From Branchiostoma floridae (taxonomy: Eukaryota > Chordata > Leptocardii > Amphioxiformes > Branchiostomatidae): a DNA stretch of 64,000 nucleotides. Below the pieces are notes generated by a model. It saw only the letters and a program-made list of their open reading frames with translations, ran no database searches and was not told the origin of the DNA. The position numbers were made by a program, and so were the translations under genes. The stretch spans positions 16,930,552-16,994,551 of the forward strand of contig NC_049994.1 of assembly GCF_000003815.2 (NCBI RefSeq), given 5' to 3'. Each line of letters begins with the position of its first letter. The stretch's first letter is position 1. Of this stretch, positions 10,428-56,815 are shown in pieces.

Positions 10428-10790
10428 CTATGGTTACCCAAACGACGCCATTTCAACTTTTGATCAAACTGGATGTGTCCTCGGTAGTAATCAGTTTACT
10501 AGTATACAGTGTGTAAGTTCTATCGAATCGGATATTTCTGTAGCTTTTGTAACTTTAAAATCACTCTTCATGAGCCTAACATTATAGCAAGCAAGGTTGA
10601 AGGAAATAGAGAGAAACCATCCACAGTGCGAGCATGAAAAGAATACAGAATCATGTGAAATCTTTTGTAGTAGTGTTTAAAAACAAAAAGGAATGAATAC
10701 ATTCCATTCAGTGCCCTACTATAAACATATATACATGGTGATCATAACCAGATGTTGTTAATAAATACAATAGTCTATTAACAACAATCG
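10428..10790 (+). promoter_or_regulatory. STEAP 3' untranslated region with poly(A) signal
   Basis: A canonical AATAAA lies at 10760-10765, about 335 bp after the stop codon, followed by T-rich sequence near 10795-10805. The next element, the mariner derivative, starts at 10863. Use of this site is inferred. Confidence 0.6.
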
Positions 10791-26892: not shown

Positions 26893-27249
26893 NNNNNNNN
26901 NNNNNNNNNNNNNNNNNNNNNNNNNNNNNNNNNNNNNNNNNNNNNNNNNNNNNNNNNNNNNNNNNNNNNNNNNNNNNNNNNNNNNNNNNNNNNNNNNNNN
27001 NNNNNNNNNNNNNNNNNNNNNNNNNNNNNNNNNNNNNNNNNNNNNNNNNNNNNNNNNNNNNNNNNNNNNNNNNNNNNNNNNNNNNNNNNNNNNNNNNNNN
27101 NNNNNNNNNNNNNNNNNNNNNNNNNNNNNNNNNNNNNNNNNNNNNNNNNNNNNNNNNNNNNNNNNNNNNNNNNNNNNNNNNNNNNNNNNNNNNNNNNNNN
27201 NNNNNNNNNNNNNNNNNNNNNNNNNNNNNNNNNNNNNNNNNNNNNNNNN
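26893..27249. other. Assembly gap (357 N)
   Basis: Interrupts the last coding exon of the prokineticin-receptor-like gene, so its C-terminus and stop codon are missing. Confidence 0.95.
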
Positions 27250-27509: not shown

Positions 27510-30500
27510 CTGAGAAAGACCACATGTTAGAAGCTCGAAACGAAATTATTGCTTTCAAACTTTTCCCTCGTGTCCGTATGGTAGTGATAGATCTTGCATT
27601 TCCTAACTTAAATGCCCAGTAGTATGAAAATTTCAAATTACTGTCAGGCAAGGACGATCCTGCAACACAGATGGGACTTTGCGAATTTGTCTTTATATTA
27701 TGGACGCGTTCCTGAATTTTTGTCTAATGTTCAGTAATCTACAGAATCGGCATCCGATCACGGTACTTTTACATCTTTGCTTTTTTTCAACAGAGTTATA
27801 AAGTTTTCTGTACAGGTTCACGCCCACATACATACCTATTTCCCATAGCTACAGCTTCCACGATGTAGTGCAGGGTGATGTTGAGTCGTGATTTGGCCAG
27901 AAGACGGGGGAAGAAGTCTCTCACCACAGCATAGCCGTAATACGGTCCCCAACATAGCACAAACATCACCTGGATGTAGAGATTTCAAATGTTATTTCCA
28001 TATACATACAAAAACATCTTGATCAGGTCATTTTTCCTTGTAATGTTATAATGATCCGAAGCCTTTGTCACGTGATCGGAAGTGTGACGTCATGACAGTC
28101 AATATCCATCGTGAAACAACACAACTTGTTCTTGGATTACAATGTGCTTTATTGCATACAGCCTCTTCCACTCCCCTTAGAAAGTGCTCATGCTCAGCGT
28201 TCAATATTTCAACTTTTTCTTCAGTCATGGAACGTTCTAAGGATTGAACATGAATATGCTGGAAGAATTCACTGCATTAGAAGCATCAAAAACTTTACCT
28301 TGTGTGGGGACATCTCTACAATGTTAATTACCGTCACAAATCTACTTCCATTTAATCACCTGTAGTTGGTATTGAAGCACTCTTTTAGTCATAAGATGAA
28401 GCATTTGTTTGTGCCACACGTAAACTCCTGACAGCTATAGTAGACGAATAATATCCCTAATCTTCAACTTGAAAGTTGAACTTGGGTTCTGCATTTTTAG
28501 GTATGCTTTTGAGATTGCTCTTAATTACTCCAATCGATATAATTTCAAAGGATGAAACATGACAGACTCATGATGTTGGTAATGCATTTGAGGATTTACA
28601 ATACAAGACGAAAGCCAAAGTGCTCATCAAATTAAGACTTAAGCTTCCCCCATCATCCTACTCCTACTATATCATCAGTAAGGTCTCTAGGTTAAGGGTT
28701 TGAGCTTATCCTTAGAAAGTCCTGAATCCTCTTAGTCCTTACCAGAATGACAATGAGAAGTCGGACGTTCCGTTTCTTGGACTTGAGCATGGCGGCCTGC
28801 TGAGACTCGGTCTGCTGCCCGGGGACGGTGCGGTACCTTACAGGACGGAAAGGCCATGTACCTTACATGATTTTAACAATTAAATCCGATTAGGGCTGAA
28901 TACGTCACATTTTCAAGCCGCGGCCCGACCGGCCCGATTTCAGGAACGAAACAATGATATAGCAGACACCCGACTAATAAGACGTACAGAGAATAGTCGC
29001 GGGTATTTATTTTTCTATACTTATACTTATACTTAAACGTATACATTTCTATTTTTCGTTTACCTTACAAGACGATAAGGTCATGTTATTTTGATTATAT
29101 TGATGACATCCACATGCACATCAATTTTCGGCCGTAAAAATGTTTTGACCATACTTTAAAGCGTACAAAGCAGCTGCAAAATAAGCGAATGTATGCCGAA
29201 ACATGCACAAAAATGTCGAAAAACGGCTACTAGTGTTGAAGAATGACAAAGTCGGTCCAAAGATTAAAGAAGAAGATGTGGAGGACGAAAAATAAAGAAA
29301 CTATTATTCTGTGTTCCCACCATTTGTTTGTCCTTCCCGACCAATTAGCTATCATCATGAAGACATTTTTGTTTCCAATTACTGTAAATGCAGAAACTTT
29401 CCCGGTGGATTAATGTTCGCGGTTTTCGCGGCGGCCGCTTCACCGTGAATTTAATACCACCGCGAACATTTTTCCATGGCATTAAGAGACTACAGTGCGT
29501 GGTGTTACCGGAAAATCAAAACCACCGCGAAAAGTCCATTTTCCCACTACAGCGAAATTAAATCTCCGCGAACTAAGAAATGCAGAAATGTTCGCGGTGG
29601 ATTAATTTTCGCGGTTTTCGCGGCAACCACTTTACCGCGAAATTAAATCCACCGCGAACATTTTTCTATTAAACGGTATTAAACTGCAGTAGATGGTGTT
29701 ACCGCGAAATTAAATCCACCTCGAAAAGTCATTTTTCCCGCTTCCGCGAAATCAAATCATCGCGAACTTAAATGCATTTACACAGTACATTTACAGTATT
29801 ATTTGCACGCTCGCATCAGTGTTGGGGTACCCAGAGGTTGTCATCCATATAATCAAATCAACATGGCCTAATGGTGAAATCTGTTTAATGAAGTTTGCTA
29901 AACTCTGAGTGAAAGACCTTGAGCTAATGGCAACGAACCCATCCTGTGGGAGACAACACAAGGGGAATGGAGCCCAGTCAGACGACTGACGATGCTCAAT
30001 GGCACCCCAAGGACATCAATGGACTCAGTGTTACAGTTTAGTTGCGATCGCTGATTTATATGATAAGGTTGAGTGGTCCCAAGTGATCCAAACTTCCCGG
30101 GTATGCATCTAAAGAAGTTCTCAACGCCGATGATTGAAGATCATGATTTTCAGGCACGGCATTCAGAAATACAACCAAATACTTGCAGCATGATTGAAAT
30201 ATCCAACTAGTCAAACTACGAAGGAATATTTTCAAATACACGATAGGTAGAACAAGTACTGTACACAACAAAAAGTCCTCCCTCTTAAGCTGTAGTCTGC
30301 AGCTGCCCTCACTCACCATATACGCCGTGCTATCCGGATGTAACAGAACGACATAATCAGGACCGGGATGATGAACTCCAACAGGAGAACAGCCACGTAG
30401 TAAGCTTTGTATCTGCACACAAAAACAAAGGATCAGATATCTCAATGTCCAATATCCTAACCTGCCAAGTTCAGGGAGAAGGTCACTGAACACATGAGAA

Positions 30501-33500
30501 GCCAGCAATAACTGCACAGGACCAGTTCCTGGGCTTTTTAACCCAACAAGAGGGGTGTTTCCCAGTATTTCGCCACATCCAGATCCTGTAGACATCTCTT
30601 TCCATAATATTCTGGTGAACCAATGTCTCTAAATGTGTCGCGAAGACTTGGTCTTCTCAGATAACGTTCACCTAAGATTATCTTTCCAGGCACCAAAGGG
30701 ATAGGTATTTCAGGCTTTCTAGATCACAGCATTGGCAGGTGAAAAACACTGGACGTGTTCATAGTTCACCATTCATTTACTAGCTATAGATGAGTCAATC
30801 GTCTCCTGTTCCTTGGTTCAGGTACAGTGTGAGGGGGAGAAGATTTGCTTTTACCTTGACCCACCGTTGTGGAACTGGATATCAACCCCCCAAAACGACT
30901 TCTTCGGGTGCAAACTTAAATTAAGCTGAAAATTGTCAAAACGAACCTTATAAGTACTTGAGTAAAGTGTTAACGCGCATTTAGACATCGTTAGTTGAAA
31001 GTTCGCTAACCTGACTTGATGTCCGATAGGCCAGACGAGCCCACAGAAGGTGCCGTGGAAGTCCACATAGTACAGCGCACGTGAGTACACAGCTGTGGGG
31101 ATGGCCACCAGCATGGAGCACACCCACACCGCCAGCACCACACACGTGGCCACGGCGCGACTCATCCGCGGGATGTGCGGCATCATGATCACCACGTACC
31201 TGGTAAGGCACAAACGATTCAGCTTTATTGTTTACAAGAAGAAAGAAACTGCATGTATTTTCTGTACAGACGCAGTATTTACTAGTGACATTTCGCCACA
31301 GAATTGCCATCTTGATAGAGCAATTTCATTGCTCTAGGAGCAAAGAGGAATTGTGTATCAAGTTAGCCATCATGATTATCACGTATCTGGTAACATAAAG
31401 ACACATTCTATATCAGGGTCATGATCACCACGTATCTGGGGTGACATGGACACATTCTATATCAGGGTTATGATCACCACATATCTGGTAATAACATAAA
31501 TAACGTTGAGTATCACGTTAACCATCATGATCACCACATATCTGGTAAGACATAGACACACTCTATATCAGGGTCATGATCACCGCGTATCTGGTCAAGT
31601 CAAAGTCATGATCAATATGTATCTGGTAAGATATAAAAGTTGTGTAACAAGTTCATGATCAACACGTTTTGGTAAAACACGAAAAACTTGTGTACCAACG
31701 ATCAGCCACCATGACCTGGTAAGGCTAATGACACATTTCCAAACCTGAGCCGGGTCATTTGTGTTTACGTTCAAGGAATCTGCCTGGCCGAGCCCCGGTT
31801 AAGCCTCCTTAAAGCCCCCTTTATACCCCCTTCACATTAGGCGCGATTCGATCGGACGATGAGTCTGCGAGCTCTAAATTACGAGGAGGTATGACCCTAA
31901 TGCCGACGAAGAAACTCTGCCATTTGTTCGTAGGTATCAGGGTCATACCTCCGCGTAATTTATAGCTCGCTGACAACTCGGCCGAGCTAAATTCTTGATT
32001 TGTAAAGGGGGCTTTAGGACTACTTCTATAGGTTTAAGATATATAGAGAGACATTCTGTTAAAGGAAGCCTTATAAATGATACTAAGATATTAATCCCGC
32101 ACGCACCGTTTGATACATGAGGCAGTGAGGTTGTTACAAAGGGCTTGATCGGCCATTATCTTTACATCCTTTCAGCTCATATTGACTGCTTGGAGTTCCA
32201 TCTCAATCGTCTGCATCATGTCTTTATCATTTTGCCAAAGAAGAGTATTTTTTATTCCTGGTGGTAAAAAGTACCATTATGGTCACAGTTGTTTTGTTTA
32301 GTCGACGTTGCCTGTGGGCCAATGTGAATTGCACAAAAGGAATGTACCTTGCCTTTGCAAGTAGGGAAAGAGATCTACGTCGTACATGCACACAGACACA
32401 TGGTACTTTACCCTTCCAACACTCTGCCTGTTGGACTGGGCTACTTGATGCATCTATAACTAGGACAAAATGGAGCGTCCCCTCATATCAGATTCTGGCG
32501 AATTCCAATGAAAATGTTTATGTCTTTAGCGACAGACACTTTTTACAGGGGCTTTGTTGTTACTGGGACTTTATCGCATACATTAAGGACATTTAGATTA
32601 TTTTATATGGCATACAGACTTTCATCAAAGGTCTTTACGATTACATCATTGGACTTTTCTTCAAGCCAGGATGCAGAATGCAAGTGCTGTTCAGAATACT
32701 GAGAAGATGTTTTCATTAAGTCGATCATAAACCTTAGATGCCTTGAACTCCAAGATACTTCTTTTCATGAGCATATAAATCAGCGCTCTATCATCTAGCT
32801 TCACAGTTACCTGCAGCTCACTAGAACTTACATCTTTTATAAGAAGTGTCTTTAATTCTGCCGACCAAGCAGACCGTGCCTGCCGTACCCGATAAGCCCA
32901 AGGCCATCAGTGTTGGCGGAAAGGCCCATCAATGTAATCCTTACACGAGGGTATCATCTAAAAGTTCCATCAGATAACCCATTCACTGCACATGGAGTGC
33001 CTAAAGGAGCAATTTTCATGTAATTTGGATTATGGAGCATATACCTGAATAAATTGTTATGATATTTTCTCTTCGGTGATTCGTGACTAATACCATGGCG
33101 GTATAACCGGTTTCTGAGAAGAGTCCATTCAAAGTTAGACTGTGTCATACAAATGGGTGTGCCCTATGACCTTTTGAGGTTCACACTAGGTAACCATGAC
33201 CAGGGGCCGCCATCGTACGCTTGTCTGTATGAGATAAGATATATAAATCACAGTTAACGCAATAATAACGGTGAATAAATTGTTGAGATATTTTCTCTTG
33301 GGTGATTCCTGACTAAGATCATGGCGGTATATCTGACTACTATGAAGAGTCAAATGGGTGCCCCTTATGACCTTGTGAGGTTCACACAAGGTGACTATGA
33401 CCAGGGGCCACCATCGTATGCTCGATCCCATGATATAAGATATATAAATCACAGTAAACGCGATGATAGTCACTCCCTTAGAATATACATTGCCCTTTAG

Positions 33501-34644
33501 GTCAAAGTCGAACGCTGATCACCATCAAAGTTTACTTCGGTGTCATTACGGTTTGGGATGGTGGCCATCGTAATCTCACTGACTTTAAATCCTTTAACTC
33601 CACACAGGCACTCCATCAAAAGATCAGTATCAAGTCCAGGAGTACGACCTTTTGGATGGAAACTCCTCTACTGCGACATGTAATGCAGGAATCAATCTGA
33701 AAGTTTGGACTTTATCAGAAAGGCTTCCAGTTGACATTGACGTATTACATACTAGGTACGTTGACCATTCTCCTATCACAATATTTTTGCATGTCCATGG
33801 TATTATTGGGGTTGTGTGGCGTTACAGCAGGGTATTGGCTCAGACCAAGAGGTTCTGGGTTCAATTCCTGCCATGCTATAAATCTTATGCAATAAGGAAA
33901 TACACTTTACACTACTCACTCCGTTCGGGTGTAAAATTGGTACCTGACTTCGGTTGGGGATACAAAATGAGCTGAGGAGCTGAGCTGGGCTCCACTTCCC
34001 AATATAGTGCGCTAGACATGGATGGGAACCCACAGCATCAGGAAGGCTATGGGACTACCTACCATTTCACCTATAGAGTCATCAATTCAAATTGAAATTG
34101 ATAAGGTACTACAAACATAATATCTCTTACAAAAATCTGATTCAGAACGTAATGTCGACTTCTTAGAATGTGTAAAGATCCGAAAATTATCAATAAAAGT
34201 AAAAAATATAACTAGTGCTGACCTGTCGACGGCAATGACCAGCAGTGCGTTGGTGGAGACATAGAGAGACGACATCCTGGCGTAGTTGACGACAGCGCAG
34301 GTGACGTCGCCGTACGTCCACGGCCGGTTAGGCCTGACGATGTGGTAGTCTAGTATAAACGGCACGCAGAACACAGCCACCAAGAAGTCTGACAGCGCCA
34401 GGTTGGCCACCAGAGCGTTGGTGATGGTCCGCATCTCCTTGTACTTGGCGATGACGACCATGAGCAGGAGATTCCCGACTCCACAGGTCAGCATGGTGAT
34501 GGAGTACACCGTGCACAGGAAGATCTTTGCCCAGAGGACTTCGCCATCAGAGTCTTGATAGAAGAAGTCGGTCATGTTGGGAGCGAAGTCTTCGTACAGC
34601 TCGTCTGCAGTCATGGGCGGGGACATGTTGCTGATGTTCTCCAT
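27250..34644 (-). CDS. PROKR: Prokineticin receptor-like GPCR (six exons, 3' end in gap)
   Basis: Minus-strand exons 34644-34223, 31199-31011, 30412-30317, 28836-28743, 27969-27836 and 27509-27250 join in consistent phase (2, 2, 2, 0, 2) to at least 398 residues with seven helices. Class A landmarks: N58 (TM1), LALSD86 (TM2), Cys116-Cys193 disulfide pair, D140-R141-Y142 split by intron 1, CWGP at 273-276 (TM6), and D315-T-V-V-Y319 in place of NPxxY (TM7). Prokineticin-receptor features include SLYVSTNALL, VPGQQTE in loop 3, VVRDFFP after TM6 and VEAVAMGNSSID in TM7. Two N-glycosylation sites (N3, N23) precede TM1. In vertebrates these receptors couple mainly to Gq and bind AVIT-fold peptides; the ligand here is unknown. 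Related allatotropin or orexin receptors fit less well. Confidence 0.9.
27836..27969 (-). CDS. PROKR: PROKR-like exon 5: TM6 to TM7
   Basis: Starts VMFVLCWGPYYGYAVVRDFF and continues to HYIVEAVAMGN. Acceptor catccag in phase 0, donor AAATAG|gtatgt in phase 2. Confidence 0.9.
28743..28836 (-). CDS. PROKR: PROKR-like exon 4: intracellular loop 3
   Basis: Encodes YRTVPGQQTESQQAAMLKSK then KRNVRLLIVIL. The basic KSKKRNVR end of loop 3 is the expected G-protein contact. Acceptor cctgtaag is weak; donor ATTCTG|gtaagg. Confidence 0.87.
28850..29378. other. PROKR-like intron 3, unassigned part
   Basis: Intronic DNA without recognised repeats, apart from short A/T-rich runs. Confidence 0.4.
29380..29798. 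mobile_element. Double MITE with GCGG motifs
   Basis: Two head-to-tail units (about 29380-29577 and 29578-29798) of the family at 6819-7018, starting actgtaaatgcagaaa and ending catttacagta. Inside, ttcgcggttttcgcgg and accgcgaaattaaat alternate in both orientations. Confidence 0.8.
30317..30412 (-). CDS. PROKR: PROKR-like exon 3: TM5
   Basis: Encodes YKAYYVAVLLLEFIIPVLIM and SFCYIRIARRI, with the TM5 proline. Acceptor gtgtgcag and donor ATATG|gtgagt, both in phase 2. Confidence 0.9.
31011..31199 (-). CDS. PROKR: PROKR-like exon 2: DRY tyrosine to extracellular loop 2
   Basis: Starts with the last base of the DRY arginine codon, then YVVIMMPHIPRMSRAVATCV, TM4 (VLAVWVCSMLVAIPTAVY) and loop 2 with Cys193. 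Acceptor gccttaccag, donor GTCAG|gttagc. Its acceptor boundary has been copied many times in the adjoining intron. Confidence 0.9.
31368..31730 (-). repeat. Minisatellite of exon 2 acceptor copies
   Basis: Seven to eight irregular units (30-70 bp) at about 31368, 31411, 31468, 31524, 31573, 31605, 31651 and 31707. Each contains a version of catgatcaccacgtatctgg, the plus-strand image of the acceptor and first codons of exon 2 (31180-31206). Between units, acacattctatatcaggg repeats. Confidence 0.88.
31812..32018. mobile_element. CG-rich MITE
   Basis: Ends ttaaagccccctttata and gtaaagggggctttagg are inverse, with an internal inverse pair aattacgaggaggtatgacc and gggtcatacctccgcgtaat. Related to 12329-12686. 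Confidence 0.75.
32019..33047. other. PROKR-like intron 1, unassigned part
   Basis: No bounded repeat or coding exon recognised. Confidence 0.4.
33048..33470 (+). repeat. Two-copy tandem duplication (about 210 bp)
   Basis: Copies 33048-33270 and 33271-33470 share tgaataaattgtt, gatattttctcttgggtgat, atggcggtat, gaccaggggcc and taagatatataaatcacagt. Intronic. Confidence 0.85.
33806..34030 (+). mobile_element. tRNA-derived SINE (second type)
   Basis: Head with an A-box-like tggcgttacagcagg and B-box-like ggttcaattcc (33851-33861), then a body with ggaaatacactttacac and gggtgtaaaattggtacc. Intronic, same strand as the SINE at 7680. Confidence 0.7.
34223..34644 (-). CDS. PROKR: PROKR-like exon 1: N-terminus to TM3
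   Basis: From ATG at 34644 (context catcATGG): MENISNMSPPMTADELYEDF, an acidic N-terminus, TM1-TM3 and D140 plus two bases of R141. Donor GACAG|gtcagc in phase 2. A GTG codon lies in frame upstream, but no upstream ATG before an ag dinucleotide at about 34682, so a 5' non-coding exon is possible. Confidence 0.9.
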
Positions 34645-39104: not shown

Positions 39105-39682
39105 CGAGGGGCGTGCAATAAGTAATGGTCCTGACCCACTTCCAGTTGTCTGATCTATATGAAATTTTGTATGTGTAATAATTCATATCTCTATGGGTTA
39201 TGTTGCAAAAGACAGCTCTGAACTAATTGTGGTTTCTGATTTACTGGTGTTTGAACTTAGTCAGGTGCGAAATGGACCAGGTGTGAAATGGAACCAGTTG
39301 AGTGTCGCGCAGTGATCCGGTTTTTGTATTTGAAAGGACGCACACCAAAGAAGACTTTTGATGAAATAAATGAAACTTATGGTGATGATGCCCCATCATA
39401 TGACCTTGTAAAACGCTGGCATCCTGAATTCAAACGTGGCTGGAAGTCTGTGGAAACAGCTCCCAGACCTGGTCGTCCCTCTTGTGCCATTGATGAGGCA
39501 TCAGTTGGAGGACCAACCAGGGGTGTCCTACAAAATCGGTGTCCAGAGCTGCATCAAACGATGGGAGAAATGCATAACTCTGGGTGGTTCCTATGAAGAG
39601 AAAGACTAATAACTGTGCCAAGTTTAATTAATCTCCTGCTATGGGAAATTAGTCAGGACCATTACTAATTGCACGCCCCTCG
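39105..39682 (+). mobile_element. Mariner-type element keeping only the transposase HTH (copy 2)
   Basis: 578 bp flanked by TA. Inverted ends begin CGAGGGGCGTGCAATAAG. The frame from ATG at 39288 is open for 102 codons: ECRAVIRFLYLKGRTPKKTF, PSYDLVKRWHPEFKRGWKS, then APRPGRPS, the two-helix mariner N-terminus and GRPS linker. It stops after VQNRCPELH-type sequence without catalytic residues. Confidence 0.87.
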
Positions 39683-49862: not shown

Positions 49863-52365
49863 CTTAGCCTGGGAACCATCCGGGTACACTACAAAAAATC
49901 TTTTTTCTTATTTTTCTTGTTTTCTTGTTTTTTCTTATGGAGAGAAAGAGTTTCTTGTATAAAGAAAGGTTGAGAAAAATCAAGAAACCTCCCATAAAAC
50001 CTTTGTATGTTGATTCCTACACGAAGATTTTCATTCTTGTTTTTCCTTAACTGAAGAAAATATTTCCAGTATAATGCTCACTGACAAGAATGTTCAAGAA
50101 ATTAAAGTAGAACTTTCTTTTCCAGTCTTTGCACAAGATTTGCTTCTTGTTTGATCAAATGGAAGATATGGCAGAATCTGTCCTGCAGATTATTATTCTT
50201 AAAGATTTGTTTTCATTAGAATAAAATTCTTGAACTTTCTTGTTGTCTTAATGTAGAATATCTGAGAAACATAATTCTTGCTTTTCTTGCTATTATAAGA
50301 AAAGCAAGCAGTTGCAAAACAAGTTATAACTAGCATTAAGTTCCCAAATGTTCTTGTTTTCCTTACCCATTAAGTTACAACAAATTTTCATCAATCAATG
50401 ACTGTTTTTGACTTACCCATTAACTTTTGAGAAAGATGTTTCTTGTTTTCCTTGGCAATGTTTAAGAAGATACAATAATTTTCTGAACATAATATTACTT
50501 TTCATACTAATACGAAAACAAGAAGTTCAGAAACAAACTTTAAAAATATTCTTCAATGTTCTCATGTTCCTTATCAAGAAAGTTTAAGAAATATGATTCT
50601 TGTTTTTCTTTATAATACTTATATTAATAATAAAAACAATTAATCATTTTATCCTTGTATTCTTAGCAAAAACTCAGAGCATCAATATATGAAAAACAAA
50701 AATTGACCCTGCATGATTTTCTTTTATTTTCACAATATGAGAGTTTAAGAAAGATAATTCTGTTTTTTCTGGAAATAAGAAAGTTAGCTGTGCTAAGGAT
50801 CATGGGAAATTACTCCCATCATCCTTTGCTGTTTCATTTGAATGTTACCGGTAGTCTGAGTGGGTCTGAGTGGAAGGTGCTGCTCTCTAGCTGTAATTTT
50901 TGCCTTAAGGCCATTAGATCTTCCAATAACAGGGAACAAATATGGTGTGTTTAGTGATGACAATGTTCTGCATCATTTGGGACATTGTGAACAATGTGGC
51001 TAGCTTTTTTAAAGTTCGAAAATGCTACCGAAGCCAAGGCCAGAAGCTGGACGCCCCCCTCCCCCATGCAGGTATGTTAGCCATCTTTGTTTGGAATATG
51101 ATTTCTAAAGCTACTACATGTATTTCTGTAGATGTATAATGATATGGCCGAACAGTAATTACAGAATATGAAAGTAAAGTGCATGATTTTCTGCATAATA
51201 CTAAGAATTGACTATAATATTTGCAAGGAAGGAATGTATTGAGATTTTGATCTTTACAGGGGGAGGGGGGCGATATATAAGGAATTGGCGGTCATCCATG
51301 GTCTTTGTGTGTTGTTCTAGGCTCAGAAACCTGTTGGAACAAAGAGGATGTTCCCAGCTCAACTTTGGAAAAGCTTTCAACAAGGACAAGTTGCAAGTCA
51401 TCAATCATAATTGCAACAAATTATGGCAACATCTTAACTTTTAATTAATGGTTTTAGAAGGATAATTAGTAGTGTGCAGTACTGTATCATGTGTATGAGT
51501 AAAAGGACAAGTAAGTAAAGTGTAGTTACGAAATGGTTCATTTTTTCAATCTTTGGTAAGGAATGGGTAATAGAGGAAAACACAACAAAACTTGTATGGA
51601 ACATATTGATGATAATAAATATGATTGGCGTGTATTTACATAACTGTTAACATTTGATTTGTTTGTATTCTTTATATTAGAATGACAATCTTAGTTTAAG
51701 AAACTAGTTTCTAGGTTTGTGGTTGCAAGAAGTTTAGTCTTGGAGGGAGAATGGTATTTCTGGTACAAAAACCTTAACCTTATTGCAAGAAAGCCATTCT
51801 CAGTGTAAGAATTTAATCTTGGAGACAGAAAGTAATTTCCGGTAAAAGAATCTCAATCTTCATGCAAGAAAGCCCTTCTTGGTGTAAGAAATTCTGTCTC
51901 TGAGATAGAAAGGTATTTCTGGTGCAAGAAACTCAATCTTGGCACAAGAATCTTATTCTAGGGGTAAGAAAGTCATTCATCAGCATGCAAGTGTTAGAAA
52001 TAGATTCTTACCACAAGAATACTTTTCTAGAAGATTTCGTCCATCAGTGATAAGAAAAAAGTTCTTACTAGAATCTTGACACAAGAAAAATATTGGTTTC
52101 TTGAATTTTCTCAAAACAGGGATTCTTGTATACAGAAGAATATTCTTGCTGAAAGATCAGTTTTCTTTGTTCAAGAAAAAATAAGAAAAATAAGAAAATG
52201 CATTTTTTGTAGTGTAATGGTTAGCTCATATGATCGCTTCTGGAATAGCAGAGAAGCGACTGTATATAGTGTATAAGAAATGTCAGAGTGACAAGAGACT
52301 GTACATTTATATGGTGTATGATAAACGCCGGAGCGAACTACTATCCGGATGGTACCCAGGCTAAG
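49863..52365. mobile_element. Outer MITE (cttagcctggg), interrupted
   Basis: Inverted ends cttagcctgggaaccatcc (49863) and its inverse at 52345-52365. Without the inner element at 49887-52214 it would be about 175 bp long. Confidence 0.75.
49887..52214. mobile_element. Inner TIR element rich in TTTCTTG motifs
   Basis: 2328 bp flanked by TA, ends CACTACAAAAAATC and its inverse. Both subterminal regions consist of many short inverted motifs tttcttg / caagaaa, spaced irregularly over several hundred bases. No transposase recognised; the central part (about 50790-51130) has ordinary composition. Confidence 0.75.
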
Positions 52366-56500: not shown

Positions 56501-56815
56501 TGATATGTGATAGAGTAAGTTTGATATTGTATTGATATGTGATGTTAGAGTAAGTTTGATATTGTATTGATATGTGATAGAGTAAGATTGATATTGTATT
56601 GATATGTGATGTTAGAGTAAGTTTGATATCGTATTGATATGTGGTACTGAATTACACCTGTGTTTGGAGGAAACACTATATTATACCTGTGGTTGGAGGA
56701 AACACTATTATACCTGTGTTTGGAGGAAACACTATATTATACCTGTGTTTGGAGGAAACACTATATTATACCTGTGGTTGGAGGAAACACTATATTATAC
56801 CCATGTTTGATATAA
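56501..56815 (+). repeat. Two minisatellites inside the LTR element
   Basis: First tgatatgtgatagagtaag-type units (about 30-36 bp, four copies), then cctgtgtttggaggaaacac-type units (about 25-30 bp, six copies). They explain the repetitive ORF at 56641. Confidence 0.9.

Follow-up and report, generated by a model that had tools for sequence, protein, structure and literature searches.

A diverged mirage array derived from the intron 1–exon 2 boundary of an amphioxus receptor gene

Intron 1 of a rhodopsin-class receptor gene of Branchiostoma floridae holds an array of short, irregular tandem copies of its own boundary with exon 2 (Table 1; the window analysed is a stretch of 64,000 nucleotides, and all positions count from its first letter). 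Seven copies and a worn eighth lie upstream of exon 2 on the minus strand, six of them matching the boundary far above the level of shuffled sequence, which bears out the seven to eight irregular units noted in a first-pass annotation. The array is a further example of the already described amphioxus “mirage” kind, to which it adds a diverged member at one of the most conserved receptor motifs (DRY). We consider it quite probable that this mirage arose by tandem duplication of the boundary segment and is near-neutral, the authentic last copy still being the one used.

The array and its host gene

The host gene occupies the minus strand and has six exons, all of which read through in one frame; among solved receptors in the best 60 of 529 sequences, that for prolactin-releasing peptide comes closest (E 2.9e-41), followed by a tachykinin and an NPY receptor. 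Intron 1 divides the DRY motif between R and Y (DR/Y, slashes marking the splice junction), and the first base of exon 2 is read on the minus strand in the context ...gtgccttaccag/GTACGTGGTGATCATGATG. Against PF00001, exon 2 scores 29.8 bits, slightly below the 30.5 cut-off. A run of N at 26893–27249 falls within, or just past, the coding part of exon 6.

Table 1. Exons of the host gene and units of the boundary array, with matches scored over 36 positions around the true acceptor.
Feature	Positions	Strand	Exon-side first base (acceptor before it)	Match	Remarks
Exon 1, coding part	34223..34644	-			ends VDR; donor CAG/GTCAGC; PF00001 67.3 bits
Mirage array	31368..31725	-			seven copies of the boundary, plus a worn outer one
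Worn outer unit	31697..31725	-	31715	19/36 ungapped	chance level
Unit	31651..31683	-	31669	20/36	AG lost (CCAAAACG)
Unit	31605..31636	-	31622	25/36	
Unit	31572..31604	-	31590	25/36	
Unit	31523..31555	-	31541	29/36	best unit
Unit	31466..31498	-	31484	24/36	
Unit	31417..31449	-	31435	25/36	30/31 against the sister gene boundary
Unit	31368..31400	-	31386	27/36	CAG/ATACGTGATAATCATGATG
CTCCTAG acceptor, pyrimidine-rich	31334..31360	-	31333		in array register; without exon-side copy
Exon 2	31011..31199	-	31199		begins with Tyr of DRY; source of copies; 97% identity in sister gene
Exon 3	30317..30412	-			
Exon 4	28743..28836	-			
Exon 5	27836..27969	-			
Exon 6	from 27509 into run of N	-			

Each unit joins about 14 nt of intron end to 17–19 nt of exon 2 start, and the copies stand in the same register, with spacings of 49, 49, 57, 49, 32, and 47 nt between the seven (TRF reports a period of 49 and 4.4 copies). 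Scored over the 36 positions from −15 to +21 around the true exon 2 acceptor, six units match at 24–29 positions and the seventh (31669) at 20. Six placements in the intron reach at least 22/36, where 500 dinucleotide shuffles of the intron average 0.01 with a largest count of 1; the antisense strand of the intron gives none at this threshold. The 16-mer TACGTGGTGATCATGA occurs nine times in the window with up to three mismatches (0.60 expected; largest count in 100 shuffles, 4), eight of these being the true boundary and the seven units and the other lying at 10732 on the opposite strand. The outer unit at 31715 has the 12-mer GCCTTACCAGGT in common with the true acceptor; since its ungapped score equals the mean best shuffle score, its assignment rests on position and on this 12-mer. 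The claim that every unit carries the acceptor together with the tyrosine codon holds for six of the seven, in which a YAG is followed by Tyr, and fails for the unit at 31669, where the AG is gone and the Tyr codon has become AAC.

A two-unit block of the array is repeated with 78/89 identity, so that growth proceeded partly in multi-unit steps. Copying is demonstrable for no more than about 35 nt at the boundary, because the tests beyond this segment remain at shuffle level: the linkers flanking the units resemble the true intron end no more than shuffles do, comparison of the array with the intron directly preceding the true boundary gave scores that 543 and 458 of 1000 shuffles reached, and 693 of 1000 shuffles reached the score of exon 2 from +22 to +70. 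The intron end of a sister gene (described below) scored similarly against the array (786/1000 shuffles). The unit closest to the true boundary lies 187 nt upstream of it, with about 170 nt of intron free of detected copies between array and boundary; the CTCCTAG acceptor at 31333 follows the last array unit after 53 nt.

Origin of the units

Searching the 513-Mb genome with the array at E ≤ 10 (very common words skipped) returned two matches only, to the array itself and to the true boundary; the array is thus unique to the window gene. Two contrary signs had been named in the first-pass annotation, a better match to a dispersed repeat and copies at places unlinked to the gene; neither was found genome-wide at this threshold, and the proposed derivation of the units from the local exon 2 boundary stands. 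The exact 16-mer core is present at three places in the genome: at the true boundary, in one array unit, and in exon 2 of a sister gene, the homologous exon. This sister lies on the same contig, 5 Mb off, and has the same six exons at 87–97% identity (dS 0.25 and dN 0.015 relative to the window gene, exons 1–5 only). Outside the exons, BLAST against the sister (E ≤ 0.001) yielded only matches of two array units to the sister boundary and, at another place, a single opposite-strand match of 71 bp. No copies were detected upstream of the sister acceptor, whose score was reached by 281/300 and 124/400 shuffles. The 19-nt exon core of the sister is that of the window gene save for the first base, where the sister has A, as the seven units do; because this arrayless gene has the same exon start, the exon is the source of the copies. 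The junction reads AG/A in the seven units and the sister, and AG/G in the local exon 2 and the outer unit; among relatives having the intron, the first exon base is A in eight and G in seven. The array may preserve an older AG/A form of the local boundary.

It is scarcely credible that the units are part of a dispersed repeat, or that the array supplied the end of the exon. A MITE-like element (31810–32016) does precede the array by about 85 nt, in favour of the former, but an origin from such a repeat was rejected on the genome search, in which the array matched nothing beyond itself and the true boundary and nothing at unlinked loci. Derivation of the exon from the array was rejected on the exon core that the arrayless sister shares, and the intron occupies the same codon position (DR/Y) in 15 of 17 relatives, which again speaks against it.

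The element at 31810–32016 is a hairpin, with outer inverted repeats of 14 nt (perfect) and inner ones of 68 nt, and has at least 80 genome matches (40 of 1746 first-look candidates were scored); judged by these features, it belongs to an abundant MITE-like family distinct from the array.

Mirages elsewhere and the noncoding background

Mirages are described as tandem copies of an intron–exon boundary within the adjacent intron, many of which keep splice signals (PMC3087553), with reported units of 10–72 bp in Adh3 (Canestro et al, 2002, as cited in PMC3087553) and of 150–160 bp in globins (BflGb6, 150–160 bp; BflGb9, 157 bp; PMC3087553). The features by which they are recognised recur here: a tandem repeat in a cephalochordate genome, a unit that spans an intron–exon boundary of the host gene, and copies that lie beside the authentic boundary with splice signals. 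As in the globin and Adh3 mirages so described, boundary copies occupy the neighbouring intron, splice signals are often kept, and unit sizes are irregular; the present units differ in being more diverged, in an exonic part of only 17–19 nt, and in the ~170 nt of copy-free intron before the true boundary. Length instability between haplotypes or cells is a further feature expected of mirages. Lancelet PGBD5 and troponin C are described as having imperfect tandem repeats over splice sites (PMC3902484; troponin C as cited there), and in this they resemble the array; the reported PGBD5 units, however, measure 60 and 108 bp and lie partly in presumed coding sequence, whereas the array units measure 32–57 bp and are intronic only. 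The Rogers model, in which introns are gained via tandem duplication of AG/GT proto-splice sites (as cited in PMC3087553), takes the same raw material, tandem copies of a splice boundary, but the array has made no new intron: the DR/Y intron is shared by 15 of 17 relatives, and the copies lie inside it.

Globin loci of the same genome served as a positive control. A 158-bp unit is repeated 4.2 times in one globin exon, and a second locus has a 74-nt edge copy at +157; by unit size rather than by sequence, we infer that these 158- and 157-bp repeats correspond to BflGb6 and BflGb9. Among the nine globin loci tested, in which repeats were scored without mapped exon edges, same-strand copies were found in three (L046, L049, L050) and opposite-strand matches in one (L045). 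A further globin exon, at L049 and additional to the two size-matching loci, shows a copy on its 3′ side (73 nt, 79%) that lies 116 nt downstream.

The DR/Y acceptor was tested in 15 of the 17 relatives (the two left out have Ns at the site, L015, or lack an intron at DRY, L016), and copies upstream of it were found in two of these 15, the window gene and the gene at C16:8377569 (L028, copy at −180). A wider survey took 10-kb stretches of 16 genes (the window gene, its sister, and 14 relatives, that of L016 included and that of L015 not) and counted 61 boundaries, at each of which a protein match came to two residues or fewer from the end of the reference exon and an AG or GT lay nearby; same-strand copies spanning the boundary were found at four of the 61, and inverted copies at none. 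The exon 3 acceptor of L025 bears a mirage with three copies, at −51, −104, and −161, and the exon 1 donor of L023 one with two copies, at +133 and +265. We regard the mirages of the three relatives (L023, L025, L028) as independent of the window-gene array; these three, together with the small test against noncoding background given below, are additions to what has been described. The boundary survey also returned one antisense match (L026).

Within the window gene, the exon 4 acceptor has weak same-strand copies (28836–29085), one before 29063 (22/32) and one before 28861 (shared TGTAAGGTAC); the score was reached by 1/300 shuffles, with 20 edges tested, and these copies were not positive in the boundary-spanning tests. 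A second, weak mirage in the same gene is possible.

Counting direct copies only, 4/61 boundaries (6.6%) were positive against 242/3388 noncoding points (7.1%; Fisher p = 1), where the points form a grid in the same loci and are not independent (the positives fall into 36 clusters), some grid positives are mirages themselves, and the sample represents one receptor subfamily. An earlier and looser form of the test gave 120/2003 direct and 73/2003 inverted matches at intron points, 63/914 and 30/914 at other noncoding points, and 4/61 and 0/61 at boundaries; in another run, coding points were positive on the same strand at 4/232, and noncoding points at 165/1600 on the same strand and 66/1600 antisense. 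Subtracting the inverted matches (73/2003 intron points, 0/61 boundaries) leaves room for a modest boundary enrichment, and the comparison therefore shows a lack of clear enrichment, not equality. A splice-directed mechanism, such as transcript-guided repair or copying, would duplicate preferentially at intron–exon boundaries; the recurrence of mirages at both acceptors and donors of genes unrelated to one another and the absence of inverted matches at boundaries point that way, but with no clear excess of direct copies at boundaries over noncoding points such a mechanism is not needed, and we hold it to be very unlikely. The explanation we favour for mirages is instead general tandem duplication that happens to cross a splice boundary, the authentic last copy surviving. 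On whether mirages need a special mechanism, the survey gives a small-sample answer, the boundary rate being that of noncoding points. Should this rate hold genome-wide, mirages would be the part of a pervasive tandem duplication that shows itself, and lancelets would supply numerous natural experiments on how near-perfect decoys beside a true site are skipped by the spliceosome.

Splicing potential of the copies

With the pyrimidine stretch and the yUnAy branch-point motif taken in their general definitions, several copies present a context close to that of the true site, as the first-pass annotation had it: at −20 to −4, five YAG units have at least the pyrimidine content of the true acceptor and the sixth has less, and a branch-point-like yUnAy lies in reach of all seven units, whereas the true site has none. 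The CTCCTAG at 31333 has the top pyrimidine content among the 88 YAG sites examined. Given six kept AGs, the branch-point-like motifs, and this pyrimidine-rich site, decoy use is plausible on sequence. In 8/8 cases, with exon 1 spliced to one of the seven units or else to 31333 (the sites that the test covers), the frame meets a stop before exon 2. The short, closed pseudo-exon that had been predicted was rejected: the 41 GT sites between array and exon 2 reach at best 6/9 of the donor consensus, against 7–8 for the gene's own donors, so that a used decoy would yield a 5′-extended exon 2 running into a stop. That RNA structure hides the decoys was rejected too: although folding of the region surpasses that of shuffles (z = −3.98, 0/100), the predicted fold leaves the true AG less accessible than most decoy AGs.

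If functional, the copies would be alternative 3′ splice sites, each adding a stop soon after DRY, with array length and splicing factors tuning the output of full receptor. The kept YAGs, the pyrimidine and branch-point contexts, and an early stop from every decoy tested, as a poison isoform would have, are all consistent with such a role, yet the sister gene encodes nearly the same protein without an array, one unit in seven has lost its AG, predicted structure does not favour the true site, boundaries are not enriched in copies, and regular splicing is reported by RT-PCR to be undisturbed at published mirages (PMC3087553, PMC3902484). We consider this role rather unlikely, and the tuning suggested by the first-pass annotation is unsupported on the same published splicing and boundary counts. 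Less likely again is that the copies are used at a low, array-length-dependent level, so that a gain or loss of units, whether between alleles or in somatic cells, alters the proportion of receptor transcripts ending at DRY; if that were true, lancelet mirages would be a naturally occurring, unstable series by which the choice of 3′ splice site is tuned.

We prefer an origin by duplication with little effect on the gene. The founding step would have been a tandem duplication of a short segment that ran from the last bases of intron 1 into the first bases of exon 2; the resulting minisatellite would then have grown and diverged via slippage or unequal exchange, multi-unit blocks included, with the authentic last copy remaining in use throughout. 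Under exon definition, an exon is recognised as a unit together with its own donor, and this is the likely reason that decoys are skipped: exon 2 would be recognised with its donor, the decoys would mostly be passed over, and occasional use of one would produce an early-stop transcript of little consequence. Because of this expected harmlessness, and because published mirages are reported to leave splicing undisturbed, we take the array to be most likely a near-neutral by-product, with decoys that splicing probably ignores for the most part.

Elsewhere in the window, other minisatellites lie at 51727–51940 and 56501–56809 (79 bp × 2.7; 35/67-bp and 29/56-bp higher-order arrays), and the open frame at 39261–39596 resembles a fragment of a mariner-type transposase.
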